From Pseudomonas eutrophicaquae (lineage in GTDB: Bacteria; Pseudomonadota; Gammaproteobacteria; Pseudomonadales; Pseudomonadaceae): a stretch of DNA of 64,000 bases. Position numbers and translations under genes: made by a program. The stretch spans positions 84,386 to 148,385 of the forward strand of contig NZ_JAMJEZ010000004.1 in assembly GCF_023544715.1 (NCBI RefSeq). The letters are read 5' to 3'. The notes below the pieces were generated by a model. It did no database searches. It was not told the origin of the DNA and was given only the letters and a program-made list of their open reading frames with translations. Below, piece by piece: positions 18,976-29,552 of the stretch; positions within the stretch are counted from its first letter, which is position 1; every line of letters starts with the position of its first letter.

Positions 18976-20181
18976 CTACCGCACCTCAGGCGTATCAATC
19001 ACCAGCACCTGGGTGCTGCTCTCAGCGGTCTTGACCGGTGGCAGGTCGCCGAACCACTCCCCTTCAGTCGGGCTGCCGGCGCGGGAGATGCGCGCGACCA
19101 GCTGCACTTCGGGGAAGCCGGAGAGCTTGAGCTGCGGCATCATCGCATCACTGTCGGAGAGGCTGACCTCCGCCGGCAGGTCCGCCACCGTCAGGCGCTT
19201 GGCTGCCAGCGGCATCGGCGGGCCGGAGGCGGCGCGGGCAAAGACGAACACCGTATCGCCCGGCTGCACCTTGTCAGCCAGCTCAGCAGCCAGGCTGACC
19301 TTGACCTTCAGTTCCACCGCTGGCACCGCCGCCGCAGGCTCCGGTACAGACTCACCACGGGCAATCAGCTCCTCGCGGGCGCGGGCGATGCCGCCCTCGA
19401 TGGCGGCGCGGGATGGATCATTGGCCGCCAGCAGCGCCGCCAGCCGCCCCCAGTATTCGATGGCCTCGGCAAAGCGCTGCTCCTCAAAGGCAGCCACGCC
19501 GAACAGGCCGAGCACGGTCACATCCTGAGGGTCCTGCGCGAGCACTTCCTCACCCAGCTGACGGATTTCCGCGGTCAGGCGCTGGTTGCCGGCAAAGTAC
19601 AGCGCCTGCGCCCACTGGGCGAGCAGCTCAGGATGCCGGCCAGCCTTGTCAACGGCCTGGGCAAAGGCACCCGCGGCCTGCTGTGGACGCTGCTGGCTCA
19701 TGTAACTGCGCCCAAGGAAGTACCAGGCCTCAGCGTTATCCGGCTGCGCCTTGACCGTTGCCTCCAGGCGCGCCACCGCCTCTTCCAGGGTCTGCGGCGC
19801 CTGGGCCATCTCCTGACGCAGCGTGAGCGCAGCGCTGGCCCCCCACTGCAGATAAAGGCCGGCGGCCACCACCGGCAATAGCAGGCTCAGTGCCAGCGGC
19901 AGCCAGCGCCCGAGCGGGCTGCGCACCTGCAAACCGCCCTTTTCGGTATCAGCCAGCAGCTCGCGGGCCGCCTCGCTGCGGCCCTGCTCCAGCTGGGTGC
20001 TGTCCAGCGCGCCAGCCGCATACTGGGCATCCAGCTCGGTAATGCGCTCCTGATAGAGCGCTACATTGAGGGCAGTGCGGTCTTCTTCAGCCTGCGCGCG
20101 TTGGCCGCGCAGTACAGGAATCAGCAACAGGGCGAGGGCCGCCAGTAGCAGAACGGCGGCAGCCAGCCAGAACGTGGTCAT
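18976..20181 (-). CDS. ccmI: Cytochrome c maturation protein CcmI (CycH)
   Basis: Apocytochrome c chaperone working with CcmF and CcmH in haem ligation at the outer face of the inner membrane. The 401-residue protein has an N-terminal transmembrane helix (residues 4-24), a cytoplasmic leucine/glutamate-rich segment, and a second helix near 95-112. The periplasmic part holds TPR repeats (about 120-240, e.g. PDNAEAWYFLGRSYMSQ) and a C-terminal beta-rich domain. The start overlaps the ccmH stop (TGATG). It is the last gene of the ccm operon. Confidence 0.93.
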   Translation of the reverse strand: MTTFWLAAAVLLLAALALLLIPVLRGQRAQAEEDRTALNVALYQERITELDAQYAAGALDSTQLEQGRSEAARELLADTEKGGLQVRSPLGRWLPLALSLLLPVVAAGLYLQWGASAALTLRQEMAQAPQTLEEAVARLEATVKAQPDNAEAWYFLGRSYMSQQRPQQAAGAFAQAVDKAGRHPELLAQWAQALYFAGNQRLTAEIRQLGEEVLAQDPQDVTVLGLFGVAAFEEQRFAEAIEYWGRLAALLAANDPSRAAIEGGIARAREELIARGESVPEPAAAVPAVELKVKVSLAAELADKVQPGDTVFVFARAASGPPMPLAAKRLTVADLPAEVSLSDSDAMMPQLKLSGFPEVQLVARISRAGSPTEGEWFGDLPPVKTAESSTQVLVIDTPEVR

Positions 20182-20669
20182 CAGCGATCAGCCTTGTGGT
20201 TGAGCAGGTGGTCGAGGCGCGCACGCTCCTCGGCGGAAAGATCATGGGCTGCCGGCGCTGCGGCCCCCGCGGCACTGGCGCGGCGCCGACGTAGGACGAT
20301 GCCGCCCAGCACCAGCAGGCCACCGCCCAGCATCAGCCAGGGCCCGTACCAGAGCAGCCAGGTGCGCGCATTGACCGGCGGGCGATAGCGCACGAAGTCA
20401 CCGTAGCGATCGACCAGGTAATCGACGATCTGCTCGTTGCTCTGCCCCTCGCCGAGCATGCGGAAGATCTCGCGGCGCAGATCCATGGCGATCGGCGCAT
20501 CCGAATCAGCAATGTTCTGGTTCTGGCATTTCGGGCAGCGCAGCTCCTCGACCAGCGTGCGATAGCGGGCGCGCTCGGCGTCATCCCGAAACTCGTAGGT
20601 ATCCACTGCCGCCTGGGCGCTGAGCAGCACGCCCAGCCCCAGACTGGCAGCCAGCAGGATGTGCTTCAT
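20181..20669 (-). CDS. ccmH: Cytochrome c-type biogenesis protein CcmH (CcmL/CycL)
   Basis: Membrane-anchored thioredoxin-like component that reduces the apocytochrome CxxCH disulfide. The 162-residue protein has a signal sequence (about 1-20), the LRCPKC motif with cysteines 45 and 48, the family stretch DLRREIFRMLGEGQSN, and one C-terminal transmembrane helix (about 108-128) followed by an Arg-rich tail. It overlaps dsbE by 4 bases (ATGA) and ccmI at its stop. Confidence 0.96.
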   Translation of the reverse strand: MKHILLAASLGLGVLLSAQAAVDTYEFRDDAERARYRTLVEELRCPKCQNQNIADSDAPIAMDLRREIFRMLGEGQSNEQIVDYLVDRYGDFVRYRPPVNARTWLLWYGPWLMLGGGLLVLGGIVLRRRRASAAGAAAPAAHDLSAEERARLDHLLNHKADR

Positions 20670-21208
20670 TGGCCAGCCTCATCGAGCAATGCGCGGTACA
20701 GCGGCGCCAGTTGTTCACGCCAGACGCGCTCATCGATGGCCCCGACGTACTTGTGACGGACGATGCCGTCCTTGTCGAGCAGGAAGGTTTCCGGCGCGCC
20801 ATAGACACCCAGGTTGATGCCGAGGCTGCCTTGCGGATCCGCAACGTTCAGGCGATACGGATTGCCCAGCTGGGCCAGCCAGCGCCGCGCCAGCTCGCTG
20901 TCATCCTTGTAGTTGACGCCATACACCAGCACGCCTTGAGCGGCCAGACGGTTGAGCATTTCGTGCTCGTCGCGGCAGGTCGGGCACCAGGTGGCCCAGA
21001 CATTGAGCAGCGCCGGCTGGCCCCGCAGATCCTCGGCACGCACAGTGCGCTGCGGGTCTTCCAGTGAGGGCAGCGCAAAGCTCGGCAGCGGCTTGCCGAT
21101 CATCGTCGAGCCGATGTCACGGGGATCCAAAAACAGCCCCTTGTAGAGCAGGCCCGCCAGCACCAGAAAGCCCAGCAGCGGCAGGATCAGCAGCAGGCGA
21201 CGGTTCAT
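20666..21208 (-). CDS. dsbE: Thiol:disulfide interchange protein DsbE (CcmG)
   Basis: Periplasmic, membrane-tethered thioredoxin that keeps apocytochrome or CcmH cysteines reduced. The 180-residue protein has an N-terminal anchor helix (about 5-25), then a thioredoxin fold with WATWCPTCRDEH carrying the CxxC at about residues 81-84, and the cis-proline loop GVYGAPETFL. ATG 21208 was chosen; it overlaps the ccmF stop (ATGA), and the longer upstream frame lies inside ccmF. Confidence 0.96.
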   Translation of the reverse strand: MNRRLLLILPLLGFLVLAGLLYKGLFLDPRDIGSTMIGKPLPSFALPSLEDPQRTVRAEDLRGQPALLNVWATWCPTCRDEHEMLNRLAAQGVLVYGVNYKDDSELARRWLAQLGNPYRLNVADPQGSLGINLGVYGAPETFLLDKDGIVRHKYVGAIDERVWREQLAPLYRALLDEAGQ

Positions 21209-23175
21209 GCGCGCACCTCGCCGCCCAGCGCTTCGCTGACCCGCGTGCGGACCTTGACCCGGTAGCGGCGATCCAGCGCGGCCAGCAGACCACCGAAGGC
21301 CATCATCAGCCCGCCCAGCCAGATCCAGCGCACATAGGGTTTGACGTGCAGGCGCACGGCCCACGCCCCCTCATCCAGCGGCTCGCCCAGCGCAACATAC
21401 AGGTCACGCCAGAAACCGGCATCGATGCCCGCCTCGGTCATCGGCATCTGCTGCACGGTGTACAGACGCTTCTCGGGATAGAGCACGGCAATCTCGCGGC
21501 CCGCCTCGATCACCCGCACGGTGGCCTTGTCAGCGGTGTAGTTGGGGCCTTGATGAGGACGGGCACCCTCGAAGACGAACTGATAGCCACCCAGCTCCGC
21601 CGATTCGCCCGGCGCCATGCGCAGGTCACGTTCGACGGTGTACTGGCTGGACAGCACCACCCCCAGCGCACAGACCGCGATTCCGACATGCGCCATCTGC
21701 ATGCCCCAGTAACTGCGCGACAGAACCGGCAGGCCCTTGAGCAGCCCCTTGTGGCGGGTCTTGTCGAGGATGTCACGCACACCGGTCAGCACCACCCAGG
21801 CACTCAGCAGCGTGGTGGCCAGGACGGCCCAGTGGAAGTCGCCCAGCAGCCAGGCGGCGACAAAGCCGAGCACAGCAGCCAGTACCAGCACCGGACGGAG
21901 CATGCCGCCCAGCCAGCGCACCGGGGTGTCCTTCCAGCGCACCAGCACGCCGATGCCAAGGGTCAGCATCAGCAAGGCCATCAGTGGCAGGAACAGCGCA
22001 TTGAAGTACGGCGGGCCGACCGAGAGCTTGGCGCCGGTCAGGGCATCGAGTGCCAGCGGATAGAGGGTGCCGAGCAGGATGGTCGCGCAGGACACCACCA
22101 GGATCAGGTTGTTGGCCAGCAGCAGCGTCTCCCGCGACCACAGGGCAAAGCCCACCTGACTCTTGACCACCGGCGCGCGCAGGGCAAACAGCGCCAGCGA
22201 GCTGCCGACCACGCAGAGCAGGAAGATCAGGATGAAGGTGCCACGCTCAGGGTCATTGGCAAAGGCATGCACCGAAGTCAGCACGCCGGAGCGCACCAGG
22301 AAGGTGCCGAGCAGGCTCAGCGAGAAGGCGGCAATCGCCAGCAGCACGGTCCAGCTCTTGAACACGCCGCGCTTCTCCGTCACCGCCAGCGAGTGGATCA
22401 GCGCAGTGGCCACCAGCCAGGGCATGAACGAGGCATTCTCGACCGGGTCCCAGAACCACCAGCCACCCCAGCCCAGCTCGTAATAGGCCCACCAGGAACC
22501 GAGCACGATGCCGATGCCGAGGAACGACCAAGCCACGATGGTCCACGGCCGCGACCAGCGCGCCCAGGCAGCGTCCAGACGCCCACCCAGCAGCGCCGCG
22601 ATGGCGAAGGCAAATGCCACCGACAACCCGACATAACCCATGTAGAGCATCGGCGGATGCACGATCAGGCCGAAGTCCTGCAGCAGCGGGTTGAGGTCCC
22701 GACCATCGGCCGGGGCATTGGGCAGCAGGCGCTCGAACGGGTTGGAGGTGATGATCATGAACAGCAGGAAGCCGACACTGATCAGGCCCATCACGCCCAG
22801 CACCCGGGCCAGCATCTCCTCCGGCAATTGGCGCGACAGCACCGCCACGGCAAAGGTCCAGCCAGCCATGATCAACGCCCAGAGCAGCAGCGAGCCCTCA
22901 TGCGCGCCCCAAACCGCACTGATCTTGTAGAACCAGGGCAGCGCCGAGTTGGAGTTGCTGGCCACATAGGCCACCGAGAAATCATCGATCAGGAAGGCAT
23001 GGGTCAGGCAGATGAAAGCAAACAGCAGGAAGCCGAACTGCCCCCAAGCCGCCGGCTGGGCCAGCCCCATCCACAGGCGGTCACCGCGCCAGGCACCGAT
23101 CAGCGGCAGGGTGCCCTGCACCACCGCCAGGCACAGGGCGAGAATCATGGCCAGATGGCCGAGCTCGGGGATCAT
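21205..23175 (-). CDS. ccmF: Haem lyase subunit CcmF
   Basis: Large inner-membrane protein of the cytochrome c haem lyase; takes haem from holo-CcmE and attaches it to apocytochrome. The 656-residue protein is strongly hydrophobic with roughly 15 membrane segments and carries the tryptophan-rich WWD haem-handling motif ([16 protein letters not shown], near residue 230). Conserved histidines include that of [12 protein letters not shown]. Overlaps ccmE upstream and dsbE downstream by 4 bases each. Confidence 0.97.
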
Positions 23176-23735
23176 TGCTCATCTCCTTGCGAGGAGGACG
23201 GTTGCTGGGCCGCATCCTGCACCTTTGTACCGGTGGCGTCCTGCCCGGCTGCAGACGGTTTGCTGGCACCGTAGTTGCCGTAGGCGCTGCCCGCAGCGGC
23301 CCCGCCTTGCTGGCTGGCTTTCTCCAGGGCCTGGGTGACTTCCGGCGGCATGTAGTTCTCGTCGTGCTTGGCCAGCACCTCGTCGGCAATCAGCACGCCG
23401 TCCGCGTTCAGCCGACCGAGGGCGACGATGCCCTGCCCTTCACGGAACAGGTCCGGGAGGATGCCGCTATAGCGGATGGTCACATCGGCGGCGTAGTCGG
23501 TGACCACAAAGTCCACCTCCAGCGAATCACGGGAGCGGCTCACCGAGCCCTCCTTGACCATGCCGCCGGCGCGGATCCGCGCACCGTCCGGCACCTCGCC
23601 AGCCGCGATCTGGGTGGGCGTGTAAAACAGGTTGATGTTCTGCTGCAGGGCGCTGAGCGCCAGCCCCACGGCCACGGCCAGGCCTGTGAGCAGGCCGAGG
23701 ATGATGAACAGGCGCTTCTTGCGCTGCGGATTCAT
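23172..23735 (-). CDS. ccmE: Haem chaperone CcmE
   Basis: Periplasmic haem chaperone that binds haem covalently through a histidine and passes it to CcmF. The 187-residue protein has an N-terminal anchor helix (about 8-28), an OB-fold, and the haem site [12 protein letters not shown] with histidine 124. The C-terminus after residue 140 is a flexible Gly/Ser/Ala/Gln-rich tail, longer than in E. coli. ATG 23735 overlaps the ccmD stop. Confidence 0.97.
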
Positions 23736-23908
23736 TGCTTGCCCTCCCGGCGCAGACGACGCGCCTCTTGCTGCAGGTAGCGGCGGCGTGCCAGAAGCGG
23801 CAGCACCACATTGAGTGCCAGGACCGCCAGGCTGACGGCAAAGCAGGTCCATACGTACACGCCATGCTTGCCCATGGCGAGAAAATCGCTAAAGGATTCA
23901 AAACTCAC
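23732..23908 (-). CDS. ccmD: Haem exporter protein CcmD
   Basis: Small inner-membrane protein that helps release holo-CcmE from the CcmABC complex. Only 58 codons, found by reading the strand: GTG 23908 starts [20 protein letters not shown], the usual CcmD N-terminus. One transmembrane helix follows (about 18-38), then a basic tail ([18 protein letters not shown]). The GTG overlaps the ccmC stop (GTGA) and its TGA overlaps the ccmE ATG, so translation is coupled on both sides. Confidence 0.92.
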
Positions 23909-24660
23909 AGATGGCGCTCCACTTCGGCTTTGACCCAGCTGGCTCGTGCCTCGCGGCGCAGCACCTCAAGGCGCATGCGCAGCAGCAGGCTGACGGCAAA
24001 GAAGGCATAGAACCCCAGCACCATGATCAGCAGCGGAATCCACATCTCCGGCGGCATGGCGGGCTTTTCGGTGATGGTGAAGGTGGCCGGCTGGTGCAGG
24101 GTGTTCCACCACTCCACCGAGTACTTGATGATCGGGATATTGATCACCCCAACAATCGACAGCACCGCACAGGCCTTGGCGGCGCTGTCACGATTGCTGA
24201 TCGACTGGCCGAGGGCAATCACCCCGAAGTACAGAAACAGCAGGATCAGCATCGACGTCAGGCGGGCATCCCAGACCCAGTACGAGCCCCAAGTCGGCTT
24301 GCCCCAGATCGCGCCGGTGAACAGGGCGATGAAGGTCATCCAGGCGCCGATCGGTGCGGCGCACTGCAGGGCCACATCCGCCAGCTTCATCTTCCACACT
24401 AGGCCAACGATGCCGGCCACCGCCAGCATGATGTAGCAGGACTGGGCAAGGAAGGCTGCCGGGACGTGGATATAGATGATGCGGAAACTGTTGCCCTGCT
24501 GGTAATCCGGCGGTGCAAAAGCCAGTCCCCAGACCAGCCCCACCGCCAGCAGCAGCACGGTCGCCACCGACAGCCAGGGCAGCCAGCGACCGCTGATGTC
24601 GTAGAACCACTTGGGCGAACCCAGCTTGTGAAACCATGTCCAGTTCATGGGAATGCTCAC
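23905..24660 (-). CDS. ccmC: Haem ABC transporter permease CcmC
   Basis: Inner-membrane protein that presents haem to CcmE. The 251-residue protein has six predicted membrane helices and the WWD motif [13 protein letters not shown] near residue 125, with flanking conserved histidines in IYIHVPAAF and [11 protein letters not shown] 24660 gives [16 protein letters not shown]; the internal ATG 4 codons later is an alternative. One base separates it from the ccmB stop. Confidence 0.97.
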
Positions 24661-24661
24661 T

Positions 24662-25333
24662 TCATTCGCCGACGCTGATCTTCAGGCCGGCTGCGATGGC
24701 AAGGGGAGTCAGGGTCACGGCCAGCGCCGTCAGGCTGGCCAGCCAGAGCAGGTGGCCTGCGGCCGGCAGGCCTTGCAGGGCTGCCTGCAGCGCGCCGCTG
24801 CCAAGGATCAGCACCGGGATGTACAGCGGCAGGATCAGCAGCGCCAGCAGCAGACCACCGCGCTTGAGGCCCACGGTCAGCGCCGCACCGACCGCGCCCA
24901 GCAGGCTCAGGATCGGCGTGCCAAGGAGCAGCGTGGCCAGCAGCACCGGCAGGCAGCGTCCGGGCAGGCCCAGCATCAATGCCAAAAGCGGCGCCAGCAG
25001 TACCAGGCTCAGGCCACAGAGCAGCCAGTGTGCCAGCACCTTGGCCAGAACCAGAAGAGGCAGCGGGTGCGGCGAAAGGACCCACTGCTCAAGCGAGCCG
25101 TCCTCAAAATCACTGCGAAACAGTCCATCCAACGACAGCAAGACTGCCAGAAGCGCCGCAACCCAGAGCAGCCCTGGCGAGAGGGTCTGCAGCTGCTGGC
25201 TCTCGGGGCCGACGGCCAGCGGGAACAGGGCAATGACGATGGCGAAGAACACCAGCGGGTTGAGTAGCTCGGCCGGACGGCGAAACAGCAGGCGCGTCTC
25301 GCGCACCAGCAGCTGTGTGAAGACGTTACTCAC
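24662..25333 (-). CDS. ccmB: Haem exporter permease CcmB
   Basis: ABC-2 type permease of the CcmAB complex, whose ATP hydrolysis drives holo-CcmE release. The 223-residue protein begins at a GTG (25333) with [23 protein letters not shown], matching family N-termini, and has six hydrophobic segments. It overlaps the end of ccmA by 8 bases. Confidence 0.95.
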
Positions 25334-25970
25334 AGGCCATCCCCCGCCGCGACAGATCCAGCTCGCGATAACCGGACGGGCGCTGCCCGAGGGTGTGGTG
25401 AGTGGTCAGCACCACCATGCCGCCGGCTTCGCAGTGCCGGGCGAGGTGGGCTTCGAGCTGGGCCACGCCCTGCTTGTCGAGGGCGGTGAAGGGCTCATCG
25501 AGGATCCACAGCGGCGGCGGATCCAGATAGAGACGCGCCAGCGCCACGCGGCGCTGCTGACCGGCCGACAGAGTGTGGCAGGGCACATCCTCAAAGCCCC
25601 GCAGCCCTACGGCAGCCAGCGCTTGCCAGATGGCGGTACGGCTGGCCGGCACCTGCAGGGCGCACAGCCAGGCGAGGTTTTCCTCGGGGCTCAGCAGTCC
25701 CTTGATGCCGGCCGCATGGCCGATCCACAACAGATTGCGGGCCAGGGTATCGCACTGCTGCTCCAGCGCCTGCCCGCTCAGGCGGATTTCGCCGGCGCTC
25801 GGCTGCATCAGCCCGGCCAGCAGGCGCAAGAGGCTGGTCTTGCCGCTGCCATTGGGGCCGGCAATCTGCACCATTTCGCCCGGGCGCAAAGTCATGTCGA
25901 GCTGCTCGAACAGCAGCCGCTGGTCACGCTCGCAGGCAAGCTCGCAGGCTTCAAGGAAGGGACTGGTCAC
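25326..25970 (-). CDS. ccmA: Haem exporter ATPase CcmA
   Basis: Cytoplasmic ABC ATPase of the CcmABCD complex. The 214-residue protein shows Walker [10 protein letters not shown], the signature [14 protein letters not shown], Walker [13 protein letters not shown] and the switch histidine in VVLTTHH. I chose GTG 25970 ([17 protein letters not shown]), which aligns with other CcmA starts; the open frame continues 25 codons upstream through the leader hairpin. It is the first gene of the ccm operon and has its own -10 box at 26036-26031. Confidence 0.95.
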
Positions 25971-26030
25971 AGCATGGCTATCCGTCGGCGCTCCGGGGAG
26001 GCCGGCCGTCTGCCGGCCGGGTCGGCGCGC

Positions 26031-26036
26031 ATTATA
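26031..26036 (-). promoter_or_regulatory. Perfect TATAAT -10 box upstream of ccmA
   Basis: TATAAT on the minus strand, 61 bases before the ccmA GTG; no good -35 at 17 bases. Between it and ccmA lies a GC-rich inverted repeat (GCCGGC copies around 26001-26018) that would fold in the leader RNA. This suggests the ccm operon is transcribed independently of the fleN-like gene. Confidence 0.5.
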
Positions 26037-26106
26037 CATAGCCACCCAACGGCCCGATGCGCGGATTTTTCAACAGTGTGTGACCGGCGCTGCGGGCCGA
26101 ATCGGC

Positions 26107-26937
26107 TCAGGCCGGCCGTGGACGCGGCTGGTATTGGGCCGCCACCAGATGCTCGATGAAAAACTCCAGGTGCCCGCGCGGATTGGCCGGCAGCGGCCAG
26201 CCATCGATGGTCTCGGCCAGCCGGGCATAGGTCTGGGCGATGCGGCTGCGCGGCTGCAGCTCGCAGACCGCCCCCTGGCGCTGCACGGCGCGGCGCAGGG
26301 TGTCGTCCTGGGGCACTGCGCCGAGGTAATCCAGCGCGATGCCGTCCAGGTCATCGATCTGCTGCAGCAGGCGCTCATGCAGCGCCCGGCCCTCGGCAGC
26401 GTTCTGCGTCATGCTGGCCAGCAGGCGCACCCGGCGCAGCCCCTGAGCGCTGTTCAGGCGGCGCAACAAGGCCAGCGCAGCGGCCCGGGCTGCCGGCTCA
26501 TCACTGACCACCAGCAGCACCTCGCTGGCCGCGCGCAGCAGGCAGCGCACATCCGCCCCGAGCCCCGGCGAGCAGTCGATCAGCAAGACCTGCGGGGGCT
26601 GCGCCAGCGTGCTGAAGGCCTGAATCAGCCCGGCCAGCTGGCGGGCGTCGGGCAGCGGGTCCAGGCTGCTGCCGGCCAGAAGCTGCAGCTCGCCAACCGG
26701 CTGGATTGCCTCGGCCAGCGTGCAGTCACCGGCCAGCACTTGCGCCAGGGTGCGCGGCGGCGCCAGGCCCAGACTGACGGCCACCTCCGGCAGGGCAAAG
26801 GCGGCATCGACCAGCATCACCCGCCGGCCACGGGCGGCCAGCGAGAAGGCCAAGTTGATCGCCGCCTGGGTCTTGCCGACGCCGCCCTTGCCACTGGCCA
26901 GCGCAATCACCTGGACCGGGCTCAGTGGCTTGCTCAT
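26107..26937 (-). CDS. FleN-like MinD/ParA-family ATPase, degenerate DxD motif
   Basis: FleN sets flagellar number in Pseudomonas by binding FleQ and inhibiting its ATPase. This 276-residue protein has the deviant Walker A KGGVGKTQ (residues 17-24), a Walker B-like LLIDCSPGLG near 120, and a C-terminal GWPLPANPRGHLEFFIEHL almost identical to FleN as I remember it. The Walker A' motif, normally DAD, reads VDAAFAL (D44, A46), so the second aspartate needed for catalysis in MinD is missing. It begins inside the FleQ-like stop (ATGA), implying coupled translation. No flagellar gene is nearby. It is closer to FleN than to the chemotaxis ParA homolog. Confidence 0.8.
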   Translation of the reverse strand: MSKPLSPVQVIALASGKGGVGKTQAAINLAFSLAARGRRVMLVDAAFALPEVAVSLGLAPPRTLAQVLAGDCTLAEAIQPVGELQLLAGSSLDPLPDARQLAGLIQAFSTLAQPPQVLLIDCSPGLGADVRCLLRAASEVLLVVSDEPAARAAALALLRRLNSAQGLRRVRLLASMTQNAAEGRALHERLLQQIDDLDGIALDYLGAVPQDDTLRRAVQRQGAVCELQPRSRIAQTYARLAETIDGWPLPANPRGHLEFFIEHLVAAQYQPRPRPA

Positions 26938-28376
26938 GCCTCGTCCTCCTCGTCACGGCGCTGCATGCCGTATTTGCGCATCTTTTCCACCAGCGTGGTA
27001 CGCCGCAGGCGCAGCCGCTCGGCCGCCCGGGCCACGACCCCACCGGCATCGTCCATCGCCTGCTGGATCAGCACCTGTTCAAGGTTGCCCAGATAGGCCT
27101 TGAGGTCCAGCCCGCCCACCGGCAGCAAAACCGGCGAATCCAGCCCCGGCAGGCTGGCCTGACTGCTGGCCGCCACCGGAAGCGCCGTGTCCAGCTCCTC
27201 GGACAGGTAGCGATACTTCTTCGGCAGCTCGCCCACCCCGACCACTCCATAGGGATGCATGATGGCCAGACGCTCGACCAGATTGGCCAGCTCGCGCACG
27301 TTGCCGCGCCAGTCGTGCTGGCACAGCGAGAGCAGCGCTGCGGAGTTGAAGCGAATCGAGCCGCGCTTTTCATGCTCCAGACGGGCGGTCAGCTCGTTGA
27401 TCAGCAGCGGAATATCCTCGACCCGCTCACGCAGCGGCGGCAGCTCGATGGTGAAGCGGCTCAGCCGGTAATAGAGATCACTGGAGAACTGTCCGACAGC
27501 AATCCGCGGCTCAAGCCCGGGTTGCGAGGCAGCGACAATGCGGACATTCAGGGGCCGCGGCTGGCTGTCGCCTAGGCGCTCGAAGCAGTCCTCCTGCAGC
27601 AGACGCTGCAGACGTCCCTGCGCCGAGGGCGGCAGGCAGCCGATCTCGTCCAGGAACAGCGTGCCCCCGGCGGCCATTTCCAACCGCCCGGGCCGCTCAT
27701 GCAGGGCGCCCGCAAATGCACCCTGCTGATAACCGAACAACTCGCCCTCCAGCACCGCTGGATCAACCGCCGCACAGTTGAACGGCACGAAGGGCTGCTC
27801 ACGGCGCGGCGAGTGGTAGTGCAGGTTGCGCGCCACCACCTCCTTGCCACTGCCCGGCTCGCCCAGCAGCAGCACGCTGCACTCGGTCTGTGCCACCTGC
27901 TGCAGCTGCTCGCGCACCTCCTGAATGGCGCGGCTGGTACCGACCAGGCTGCGGAACAGGTTCGGCTCGCGCAGCAGGCCGCGGTCACGGTCCCGGTCAT
28001 AGACCTGCCGGTACACCTGCACGCGGTGCAGGGCATCGGTCAGCTGGCTGTAGCTGGGCGGCATGTCCAGCTGGGCCAGCACCCGGCGGCGCAGCTCATC
28101 GGGCCAGCTGGCGTACTCCTGCGCTCCAAATAGCAGGATCGGCAGGTGCTCGACCGTCCCGCCGAGCTGGCGCAGCAGCCGCAGCCGGTGACTGGCCTGC
28201 CGCGGCCCGAGCAGCAGGCAGGAAAGCACCGGCGCGCCCTGGGCCTGCCATTCCGCCAGCACGTCCTCGCCCTGGCAGATCAGGAAGGGCTCGCCGAGAA
28301 ACTCGAGGATCACCGCCAGGTCATGGCAGCGCTGGGGGTCATCATCTATCAGCAGCAAACGGGCATCACGCAGCAT
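26934..28376 (-). CDS. FleQ-like enhancer-binding protein with altered sigma-54 motifs
   Basis: FleQ is the master regulator of flagella and cyclic di-GMP-controlled exopolysaccharide genes in Pseudomonas. This 480-residue protein has the FleQ layout: an N-terminal receiver-like domain without phosphoacceptor (1-115), an AAA+ domain (about 138-375) and a C-terminal Fis-type HTH (about 441-470, AAERLRLRRTTLVEKMRKYG). Walker A (GEPGSGKE, 172-179) and Walker B (LFLDEIG) remain. Residues that contact cyclic di-GMP in FleQ are kept: LFRS (140-143), RN (183-184) and LRERVED (315-321). GAFTGA is GAFAGA (219-224), and the first arginine finger of FREDL is Ser298 (FSSDLYYR). Start ATG 28376 aligns with FleQ. 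It heads an operon with the FleN-like gene and diverges from moxR. Confidence 0.85.
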   Translation of the reverse strand: MLRDARLLLIDDDPQRCHDLAVILEFLGEPFLICQGEDVLAEWQAQGAPVLSCLLLGPRQASHRLRLLRQLGGTVEHLPILLFGAQEYASWPDELRRRVLAQLDMPPSYSQLTDALHRVQVYRQVYDRDRDRGLLREPNLFRSLVGTSRAIQEVREQLQQVAQTECSVLLLGEPGSGKEVVARNLHYHSPRREQPFVPFNCAAVDPAVLEGELFGYQQGAFAGALHERPGRLEMAAGGTLFLDEIGCLPPSAQGRLQRLLQEDCFERLGDSQPRPLNVRIVAASQPGLEPRIAVGQFSSDLYYRLSRFTIELPPLRERVEDIPLLINELTARLEHEKRGSIRFNSAALLSLCQHDWRGNVRELANLVERLAIMHPYGVVGVGELPKKYRYLSEELDTALPVAASSQASLPGLDSPVLLPVGGLDLKAYLGNLEQVLIQQAMDDAGGVVARAAERLRLRRTTLVEKMRKYGMQRRDEEDEA

Positions 28377-28592
28377 GATCGGTCGCACCTGGGGCAGAAA
28401 GGGGGCAAGACGACACGCCAAGGCGACCCGTCCCGTATCGGCGGCAGTTAAGCCAAAACCCCGCCAGCAGTCAAATAGATGACGCTTGCCAGGGCGTGTG
28501 CCAACAACTCATCACCCAGACAGCGGGCTGCCCGCCGCGCGCGCGAATCGATTAAAGTGCGCACCTGCCTTTGCGAACCCGTCGAGTCCGCC

Positions 28593-29552
28593 ATGTCCCA
28601 CCGTGACGCCCTGCTTGCCCTGCGCCAGTACCTTGCCAGCCAGATCCTCGGCCAGGAGCGGCTGCTCGATCGCCTGCTGATTGCCCTGCTCGCCGATGGT
28701 CACCTGCTGGTCGAAGGCGCGCCGGGGCTGGCCAAGACCAAGGCGATCAAGGATCTGGCCGCCGGTCTGGAAGCAGAGTTTCACCGCATCCAGTTCACCC
28801 CGGATCTGCTGCCGGCCGACATCACCGGCACCGAGATCTACCGCCCTGAGGATGGCAGTTTCGTATTCCAGCGCGGGCCGATCTTCCACAACCTGGTGCT
28901 GGCCGATGAGATCAACCGCGCGCCAGCCAAGGTGCAGTCAGCGCTGCTGGAGGCCATGGCCGAGCGGCAGGTGAGCATTGGCCGCACCACCTGGGCCCTG
29001 CCGCCGCTGTTTCTGGTGATGGCCACCCAGAACCCCCTCGAGCAGGAAGGCACCTATCCGCTGCCCGAAGCGCAGCTCGATCGCTTCCTGATGCACGTCA
29101 AGCTCGGCTACCCGGATGCCTCGGTGGAGCGGCGCATCCTGCAGCAGGCACGCGGCGAGGCCCTGTGCGGCGAGACCCAGCCCGAGCAGCGCCTGAGCCA
29201 GGAAGCGATCATGGCGGCCCGCCACGAGATCCTCGGCCTGTACATGGCCGATGCGGTGGAGGAGTACCTGGTGCAGCTGGTGATGGCCACCCGCACCCCG
29301 GCACGCTTTGACGCCGAGCTGGCCGAGTGGATCGCCTGGGGCGCCAGCCCGCGCGGCTCGATTGCGCTGGATCGCTGCGCACGGGCACATGCCTGGCTGG
29401 CCGGGCGCGATTTTGTCAGCCCCGAGGACATCCAGAACGTGCTGTTCGATGTGCTGCGTCACCGCATCATCCTGTCCTTTGAGGCCGAGGCGGCCGGCAT
29501 CGATCAGGATCGGGTGATCCAGCGCCTGCTCGATGTGGTCGCGGTGGCCTGA
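28593..29552 (+). CDS. MoxR-family AAA+ ATPase
   Basis: MoxR ATPases act as chaperones with VWA-domain partners, often in envelope stress or metal insertion. The 319-residue protein has Walker A VEGAPGLAKTK (about residues 38-48), Walker B LVLADEINRAP, the sensor region ATQNPLEQEGTYPLPEAQLDRF, and a lid domain. ATG 28593 (MSHRDALLALRQYL) was chosen; the frame opens 38 codons upstream but those residues are unlike the family. It heads a six-gene block with overlapping or nearly overlapping stops and starts. Confidence 0.93.
   Translation: MSHRDALLALRQYLASQILGQERLLDRLLIALLADGHLLVEGAPGLAKTKAIKDLAAGLEAEFHRIQFTPDLLPADITGTEIYRPEDGSFVFQRGPIFHNLVLADEINRAPAKVQSALLEAMAERQVSIGRTTWALPPLFLVMATQNPLEQEGTYPLPEAQLDRFLMHVKLGYPDASVERRILQQARGEALCGETQPEQRLSQEAIMAARHEILGLYMADAVEEYLVQLVMATRTPARFDAELAEWIAWGASPRGSIALDRCARAHAWLAGRDFVSPEDIQNVLFDVLRHRIILSFEAEAAGIDQDRVIQRLLDVVAVA

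Follow-up and report, generated by a model that had tools for sequence, protein, structure and literature searches.

A FleQ–FleN pair probably freed from flagellar duty in Pseudomonas eutrophicaquae and its relatives

Introduction

In pseudomonads FleQ does two jobs: it activates sigma-54-dependent flagellar promoters in an ATP-driven manner, and it exerts cyclic di-GMP control over sigma-70-dependent biofilm genes. To our knowledge, it is not settled how far ATP hydrolysis, whether by FleQ or by FleN, is required for this second job. The model for the Pseudomonas aeruginosa biofilm genes, as outlined in PMC10723142, is occlusion of sigma-70 promoters. Here we describe the fleQ and fleN genes found in a 64,000-nucleotide stretch of DNA from Pseudomonas eutrophicaquae (assembly GCF_023544715.1, contig NZ_JAMJEZ010000004.1, positions 84,386 to 148,385), called the window throughout. 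The pair is orthologous to that of P. aeruginosa (8p53 and 8pb9), with the same domains, cyclic di-GMP residues and helix-turn-helix (HTH), and differs from it in the residues through which FleQ engages sigma-54 and FleN hydrolyses ATP.

Several other described systems resemble this one in part. The likeness to Azotobacter vinelandii is that its flagella stand under FlhDC and FleQ is dispensable for motility: inactivation of flhC abolishes flagella, inactivation of fleQ does not (PMC2885672). The A. vinelandii FleQ is presented in PMC12022260 as a cyclic di-GMP effector that represses algD, with a similar phenotype for a fleN mutant. VpsR of Vibrio cholerae is described in PMC10274813 as a bacterial enhancer-binding protein that lacks GAFTGA and acts on sigma-70 promoters, and the NtrC proteins of Caulobacter and Rhodobacter capsulatus appear there as likewise lacking GAFTGA and working at sigma-70 promoters; none of these is a FleQ orthologue. 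The NtrC cases are moreover loop deletions, as opposed to the threonine substitution described below. We know of no FleN partner for VpsR or for either NtrC.

Results

Identity of the window FleQ

The fleQ gene lies at 26934..28376 on the minus strand, as do all features of the window given below, with its ATG at 28376, and encodes 480 residues. Among solved structures it is closest to P. aeruginosa FleQ (8p53), matched over residues 3-477 at E=3.8e-191 with full-length REC-AAA+-HTH similarity, and by sequence comparison the product is a true FleQ orthologue. Orthology to VpsR was rejected, as the VpsR structure 7v2b matches far more weakly (E=9e-38); the protein is a FleQ that may work in a VpsR-like way. 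We set the domain boundaries ourselves: REC 1-135, linker 136-148, AAA+ subdomain SD1 149-310, SD2 311-392, second linker 393-425 and HTH region 426-480.

Residues lost and residues kept

Three motifs of P. aeruginosa FleQ, namely GAFTGA, FREDL and AATH, are altered in the window protein. The L1 loop reads GAFAGA (residues 219-224, 27705..27722), with Ala222 (codon GCG) at the position of P. aeruginosa T224. The first arginine finger, R300 in P. aeruginosa, is replaced by Ser298 (codon TCC, 27483..27485) in the motif FSSDLYYR, and by alignment sensor I is AASQ (residues 282-285, 27522..27533). The rest of the nucleotide machinery is in place, with K178 in Walker A, D243 and E244 in Walker B and R361 in sensor II all kept. 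Alignment shows that the residues for cyclic di-GMP and DNA are likewise intact: LFRS of the cyclic di-GMP/ATP linker (residues 140-143, 27948..27959), Arg183-Asn184 after Walker A (P. aeruginosa R185-N186; 27825..27830), NELTAR (residues 327-332, 27381..27398), in which E328 and R332 correspond to the cyclic di-GMP residues E330 and R334 of P. aeruginosa, and the near-invariant Fis-type HTH ARAAERLRLRRTTLVEKMRKYGM (26964..27032). The original prediction, made from the window alone, had read each of the three altered motifs correctly and had listed LFRS, the Arg-Asn pair, LRERVED, Walker A and B and the HTH as kept, which they are; its coordinates for the gene also hold, the orientation being that of the minus strand. 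It erred in taking LRERVED for a cyclic di-GMP site, the third such site being the one in NELTAR.

These positions were followed through nine genomes, those of the window species and eight relatives, among them Geopseudomonas oryzagri; the relatives' labels include P. oryzagri MAHUQ-58 (G001), 'Stutzerimonas stutzeri' K1 (G004) and Pseudomonas sp. A-1 (G006). P. oryzagri has been transferred to Geopseudomonas, where it belongs to the Linyingensis clade, and Azotobacter branches nearby, according to PMC10797017. In the alignment the GAFTGA threonine is replaced in all nine genomes of the genus (Ala in one, Pro in six, Val in two), the adjoining loop phenylalanine (F223) has become Leu in three, and sensor I is AA[ST][QR] throughout. 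The first arginine finger is Ser in the window genome only and Arg in the other eight; the second, R306, is lost in three of the eight relatives, which brings the genomes lacking one or the other finger to four of nine. The original prediction had asked whether its substitutions recur in relatives: that of the threonine does, and that of the first finger, which it had treated as a defining feature, is peculiar to the species and no trait of the genus. A sequencing error at the threonine is ruled out by the nine genomes without it, and at Ser298 it is unlikely, since TCC differs from every Arg codon in at least two positions and a single miscalled base cannot explain it.

Outside the genus, the three Azotobacter-like FleQs aside, the threonine and the first arginine finger are kept in every sequence compared. 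Among the best 80 of 577 matches, less three members of the genus, GAFTGA and FREDL[YF]YR are found in 77 of 77 loci (L041-L117); 23 further rows, partly overlapping these, keep both the threonine and R300; and once the two sets are pooled and duplicates removed, Thr and Arg stand in all 95 distinct pseudomonad FleQs. Three Azotobacter-like FleQs, with Ser at the threonine position and the arginine finger kept, were counted apart from the 95. A divergent FleQ from a 3.3 Mb genome (G033; L165, L155), 51% identical over its best match, keeps GAFTGA and has Asn at the T149 position and Asp at the E330 position.

The cyclic di-GMP pocket behaves differently from the loop. R138, R144, R151, R185, N186, E330 and R334 are kept seven out of seven in all nine genomes of the genus; N186 is counted here as a further cyclic di-GMP residue of FleQ. 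The other six are given for P. aeruginosa in PMC10723142 together with Glu332, which could not be placed in our alignment (Ile in PA7) and was not used.

The Azotobacter-like proteins (L031, L153, L154) deserve separate mention. They carry GAFSGA and a Walker B of LFLEEID, in which Asp has become Glu, motifs called conserved in a 2025 study of the A. vinelandii protein, the RpoN-interaction motif included. They are 501 residues long with a C-terminal extension, as PMC12022260 reports for A. vinelandii FleQ (501 residues). Unlike the window genome, they retain the two arginine fingers as well as the catalytic aspartate of FleN, and their fleQ and fleN lie far apart. In a quick FleQ tree they fall beside the genus with an SH-aLRT of 91, which is below the 95 level and was obtained with no bootstrap.

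FleN has lost its catalytic aspartate

Directly downstream, and overlapping the 3' end of fleQ by four bases with its start, lies fleN (26107..26937, 276 residues). Its product matches P. aeruginosa FleN (8pb9) over residues 5-266 at E=1.6e-69 and has the deviant Walker A motif GKGGVGK[ST]. At the position of the catalytic aspartate, D48 in the ATP-hydrolysing P. aeruginosa protein, codon 46 (26800..26802) is GCC and encodes Ala. A search of 26 genomes gave a FleN match in 25. This aspartate is gone in all nine of the genus (Ala in the window, Ser in seven, Asn in one) and kept in 17 of 17 outside it, the Azotobacter-like genomes included. P. aeruginosa FleN D48A binds ATP and is hydrolysis-incompetent, as stated in PMC10723142, and by analogy the FleNs of the genus would be non-hydrolysing. 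The open-access titles and abstract openings listed by our searches contain no announcement of the loss of GAFTGA in a FleQ or of the catalytic aspartate in a FleN, subscription papers being outside that scope. The adjoining fleN with its lost residue had been overlooked by the original prediction, as had the replacement of the flagellum, which probably lies behind the change.

The arrangement of the genes is distinctive as well. The order fleQ-fleN-ccmA is found in the window and all eight relatives. By contrast, the flanks of 81 other fleQ loci, searched to at most 10 kb and to less where a contig ends, contained no fleN; these loci comprise the 77 above, the three Azotobacter-like ones and G033. 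Strain PA7 (L116) is an example, with none within 10 kb of fleQ, unlike the genus. In nine of the 17 outside genomes with FleN the two genes are 20-23 kb apart on the same contig, and in the others they lie further apart or on different contigs. In most other pseudomonads the block between fleQ and fleN consists of flagellar genes.

Erosion is concentrated in one subdomain

From 112 aligned FleQs we took the columns conserved in at least 98% of the 100 sequences that belong neither to the genus nor to the Azotobacter-like set, and counted those that all nine genomes of the genus retain. The tally by region is REC 24/28, linker 11/11, SD1 68/128, SD2 52/59, second linker 5/7 and HTH region 33/36. 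The difference between SD1 and the remainder (68/128 vs 125/141) has a Fisher p of 7e-11, which is descriptive, as columns are not independent. The 100 outside rows include five duplicates; without them the counts are 21/23, 11/11, 67/123, 48/53, 5/5 and 30/33 in the same order, or 67/123 in SD1 against 115/125 elsewhere. The fleQ reading frame is open over the full match in all nine genomes, and dN/dS was 0.13-0.46 in the six of 36 genus pairs examined, with the lowest values (0-0.16) in SD2 and HTH. By these sequence measures SD1, which holds the ATPase and the sigma-54 face, is eroded while fleQ stays under purifying selection.

These figures bear on the possibility that fleQ and fleN are dying remnants that have drifted neutrally since a flagellar switch, the lost residues being mere decay. 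At 2.55 Mb the window genome is small, no other FleQ of the genus has so long a branch in the tree (0.72), and identity to the relatives is low for fleQ (65-68%) and fleN (63-69%) when set against ccmF (85-89%) and moxR (87-92%). Other neighbours have diverged as well, however, with ccmI at 71-76% and a DUF58-type gene at 70-81%. Decay would moreover have to spare the open frames, hold dN/dS well below 1, fall on SD1 and pass by the linker, SD2 and HTH, leave fleQ and fleN together in all nine genomes and retain the promoter site described below, and we regard it as unlikely.

Flagella, FlhDC and RpoN

Flagella of Geopseudomonas are polar or peritrichous, as given in PMC10797017. Flagellin and FlhA are matched in eight of the nine genomes, and a non-motile lineage with a leftover FleQ was rejected for most of the genus on that ground; FlhC is present in seven. 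A search of 249 genomes of the family, themselves a subset of a larger group, found FlhC in 12, ten with strong matches (E ~1e-84) and two with weak ones (1e-11; G017 and G099), the FleQs of the latter two keeping GAFTGA. The strong matches are confined to this genus (seven) and the Azotobacter-like genus (three). In two relatives (G003 and G008) flhDC adjoins motAB, and the cluster to which they belong is matched by E. coli proteins from one end to the other.

The flagellar genes of the window genome lie on other contigs of the assembly (57 in all), in four stretches (L118, L156-L158) that retain most of the flagellar cluster. When 33 flagellar and chemotaxis queries from E. coli were used, 28 found a match there, the exceptions being flhC, flhD, flhE, fliT and fliZ; the stretches of G003 and G008 likewise lack a match to fliZ, and those of G003 one to fliT. 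Where these two relatives carry flhD and flhC, the window genome has 281 bases between a flhB-like gene and motA (L156:9987-10267, contig C54). FlhC was not found elsewhere in the window assembly either; FlhD was not searched genome-wide. The window species, without flhDC, is also the one with the extra arginine-finger loss in FleQ. G001, a 99% complete genome, has no flagellin, FlhA or FlhC match, yet keeps fleQ-fleN with the residues typical of the genus.

An ancestor of this small group of soil pseudomonads seems to have exchanged its old flagellum for one of the FlhDC (E. coli) type, and since the Azotobacter-like FleQs stand beside the genus in the FleQ tree, the switch may have been one event common to both. 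With FlhDC-type flagella in most of the genus, FleQ would no longer be needed at sigma-54 flagellar promoters, and takeover by FlhDC is the likely cause of its change. A strict sigma-54-type promoter pattern had one match in 12 flagellar stretches, in G008, and none in those of the window genome, which is weak evidence.

Loss of sigma-54 itself was rejected as an explanation, RpoN being present in all nine genomes. The three other strong sigma-54 activators of the window genome keep GAFTGA, and from this and the retention of RpoN it follows that the loss concerns FleQ. Could FleQ still activate sigma-54 promoters, possibly of non-flagellar genes, through its variant L1 loop? Besides RpoN, the intact Walker motifs and sensor II, the first finger in eight of nine genomes and the milder GAFSGA of the Azotobacter-like FleQs would allow it. 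Pro, Val or Ala at the threonine, joined in three genomes by Leu at the phenylalanine, and the loss of a finger in four of nine sit poorly with it, as does the unbroken GAFTGA of the 77 other loci. Bacterial enhancer-binding proteins require the GAFTGA threonine for engagement of sigma-54: PspF T86A, as reported in PMC4132715, keeps ATPase activity and does not engage the closed complex. Continued activation at sigma-54 promoters therefore strikes us as improbable.

Cyclic di-GMP, for its part, is presumably made, since GGDEF proteins are present: 11 matches in the window genome and 24-30 in the relatives.

The fleQ promoter and FleQ boxes

Upstream of fleQ, at a distance of 107 nt, is the FleQ-box-like site GTCATCTATTTGAC (28470..28483), three mismatches from the FleQ-box consensus used in all our scans. 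A putative sigma-70-like promoter, TTGACT-N17-TTAACT (28446..28474), picked out by eye and unscored, overlaps the box with its -35 element. In all nine genomes a candidate box with 0-3 mismatches lies at -106 to -124 of fleQ and overlaps a sigma-70-like -35; with no more than one mismatch allowed, a total of four sites occur in the nine genomes, all of them 106-124 nt upstream of fleQ, and a reversed-pattern control gave one. All 77 outside loci have a candidate box (at most three mismatches) within 300 nt of fleQ, compared with 91 of 2000 windows drawn at random from these loci and 112 of 1540 shuffled versions of their upstream stretches; the best box is at -85 to -147 in 66 of them and further off in 11. 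The three Azotobacter-like genomes have no box at up to four mismatches within 400 nt upstream of fleQ. Judged by this sequence pattern, the site is ancestral, and it may be autoregulatory, with fleQ's own promoter as a probable target.

Of 16 two-mismatch sites listed in the genome-wide scan, 14 were checked and 13 lie inside an open frame of at least 150 codons on either strand, which has little meaning at high GC. A pair of such sites near greA, common to the window genome and G003, was examined and dropped. The flagellar stretches of the window genome have boxes at three mismatches only.

The position of the box matters for a further possibility, that FleQ is a VpsR-type, cyclic di-GMP-dependent activator at sigma-70 promoters and not mainly a repressor and anti-repressor. 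VpsR provides the precedent, and when cyclic di-GMP is high the P. aeruginosa FleQ acts as an activator of pel (PMC12022260, PMC10723142). The only box found, however, overlaps a -35, which fits occlusion, and the nearest studied orthologue, that of A. vinelandii, represses algD according to PMC12022260; we find the activator reading unlikely.

Gene neighbourhood

In the window fleQ is accompanied by fleN, ccm and moxR-type genes. Downstream of fleN follow cytochrome c maturation (ccm) genes (18976..26045), which we named by sequence. A moxR/DUF58/BatA-type cluster diverges from fleQ across a short common intergenic region (28377-28592; moxR start set by eye at 28593). The gap is larger in relatives, about 1.6 kb in G003 and about 8 kb in six others, and the short one is consistent with genome reduction. 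The intervening genes of G004, which we take to resemble a large NAD-type glutamate dehydrogenase, a glutamine synthetase-like protein and a transporter, were looked at and gave no lead.

Discussion

Starting from the observed residues, their conservation, the gene order, the FlhC distribution and the box position, we think it probable that FleQ and FleN of this genus form a cyclic di-GMP-controlled repressor and derepressor of sigma-70 promoters that works without an ATP-driven step and has been freed from flagellar duty. Its core, cyclic di-GMP sensing and DNA binding without sigma-54, is well supported by the sequences: the threonine is lost, the seven residues and the HTH are conserved, selection on fleQ is purifying, and flagella of the FlhDC type remove the need for FleQ at sigma-54 flagellar promoters. 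This part of the original prediction stands, shorn of its details on LRERVED and the finger. Loss of sigma-54 activation we infer from mutants of other proteins, and repression with its relief by cyclic di-GMP would follow the examples of P. aeruginosa and A. vinelandii.

The course of events may have been as follows. An ancestor would have acquired an FlhDC-controlled flagellar cluster and lost the block separating fleQ from fleN, with the pair kept adjoining. With no sigma-54 promoter left to open, FleQ would have lost the threonine that engages sigma-54, and FleN its hydrolytic aspartate. FleQ with ATP-loaded, non-cycling FleN would then occupy FleQ boxes over sigma-70 promoters and occlude them, one probable target being fleQ's own promoter with the box-like site on its -35, until cyclic di-GMP in the conserved pocket altered the FleQ assembly and lifted repression. 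The chances seem to us evenly divided that both ATP engines have been stripped genus-wide, leaving a hydrolysis-independent switch fixed in just the state, that of the FleN D48 mutant, with which the structures were solved. In the window species, where the first arginine finger has gone as well, the FleQ ATPase should be weaker still.

Several observations weigh against this picture of the pair. In PspF with an E108Q background, activity was not eliminated when an arginine finger was lost (PMC4132715). The Walker A lysine, Walker B Asp-Glu and sensor II arginine of FleQ are intact, and FleQ may still bind or hydrolyse ATP. We know of no test of Ser or Asn at the FleN catalytic position, where slow hydrolysis may persist. 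The REC domain has a dN/dS of 0.71 between the window genome and G003, a hint of relaxed constraint. The box of the window fleQ is three mismatches off, and its conservation is partly that of a -35 element. Boxes at up to three mismatches are not enriched genome-wide over the reversed control (130 vs 122 in the window genome, 96 vs 90 in G003), and no regulon is visible from these scans. Finally, with FlhC not found in the window genome or G001, FlhDC is not the present driver everywhere.

FleQ combines two jobs, and in this lineage the first of them, flagellar activation, would have passed to FlhDC, with the hydrolysis-coupled residues lost and those for cyclic di-GMP and DNA binding kept. 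The genus may thus represent a natural separation-of-function experiment and a source of ready-made proteins in which the second job can be studied by itself.

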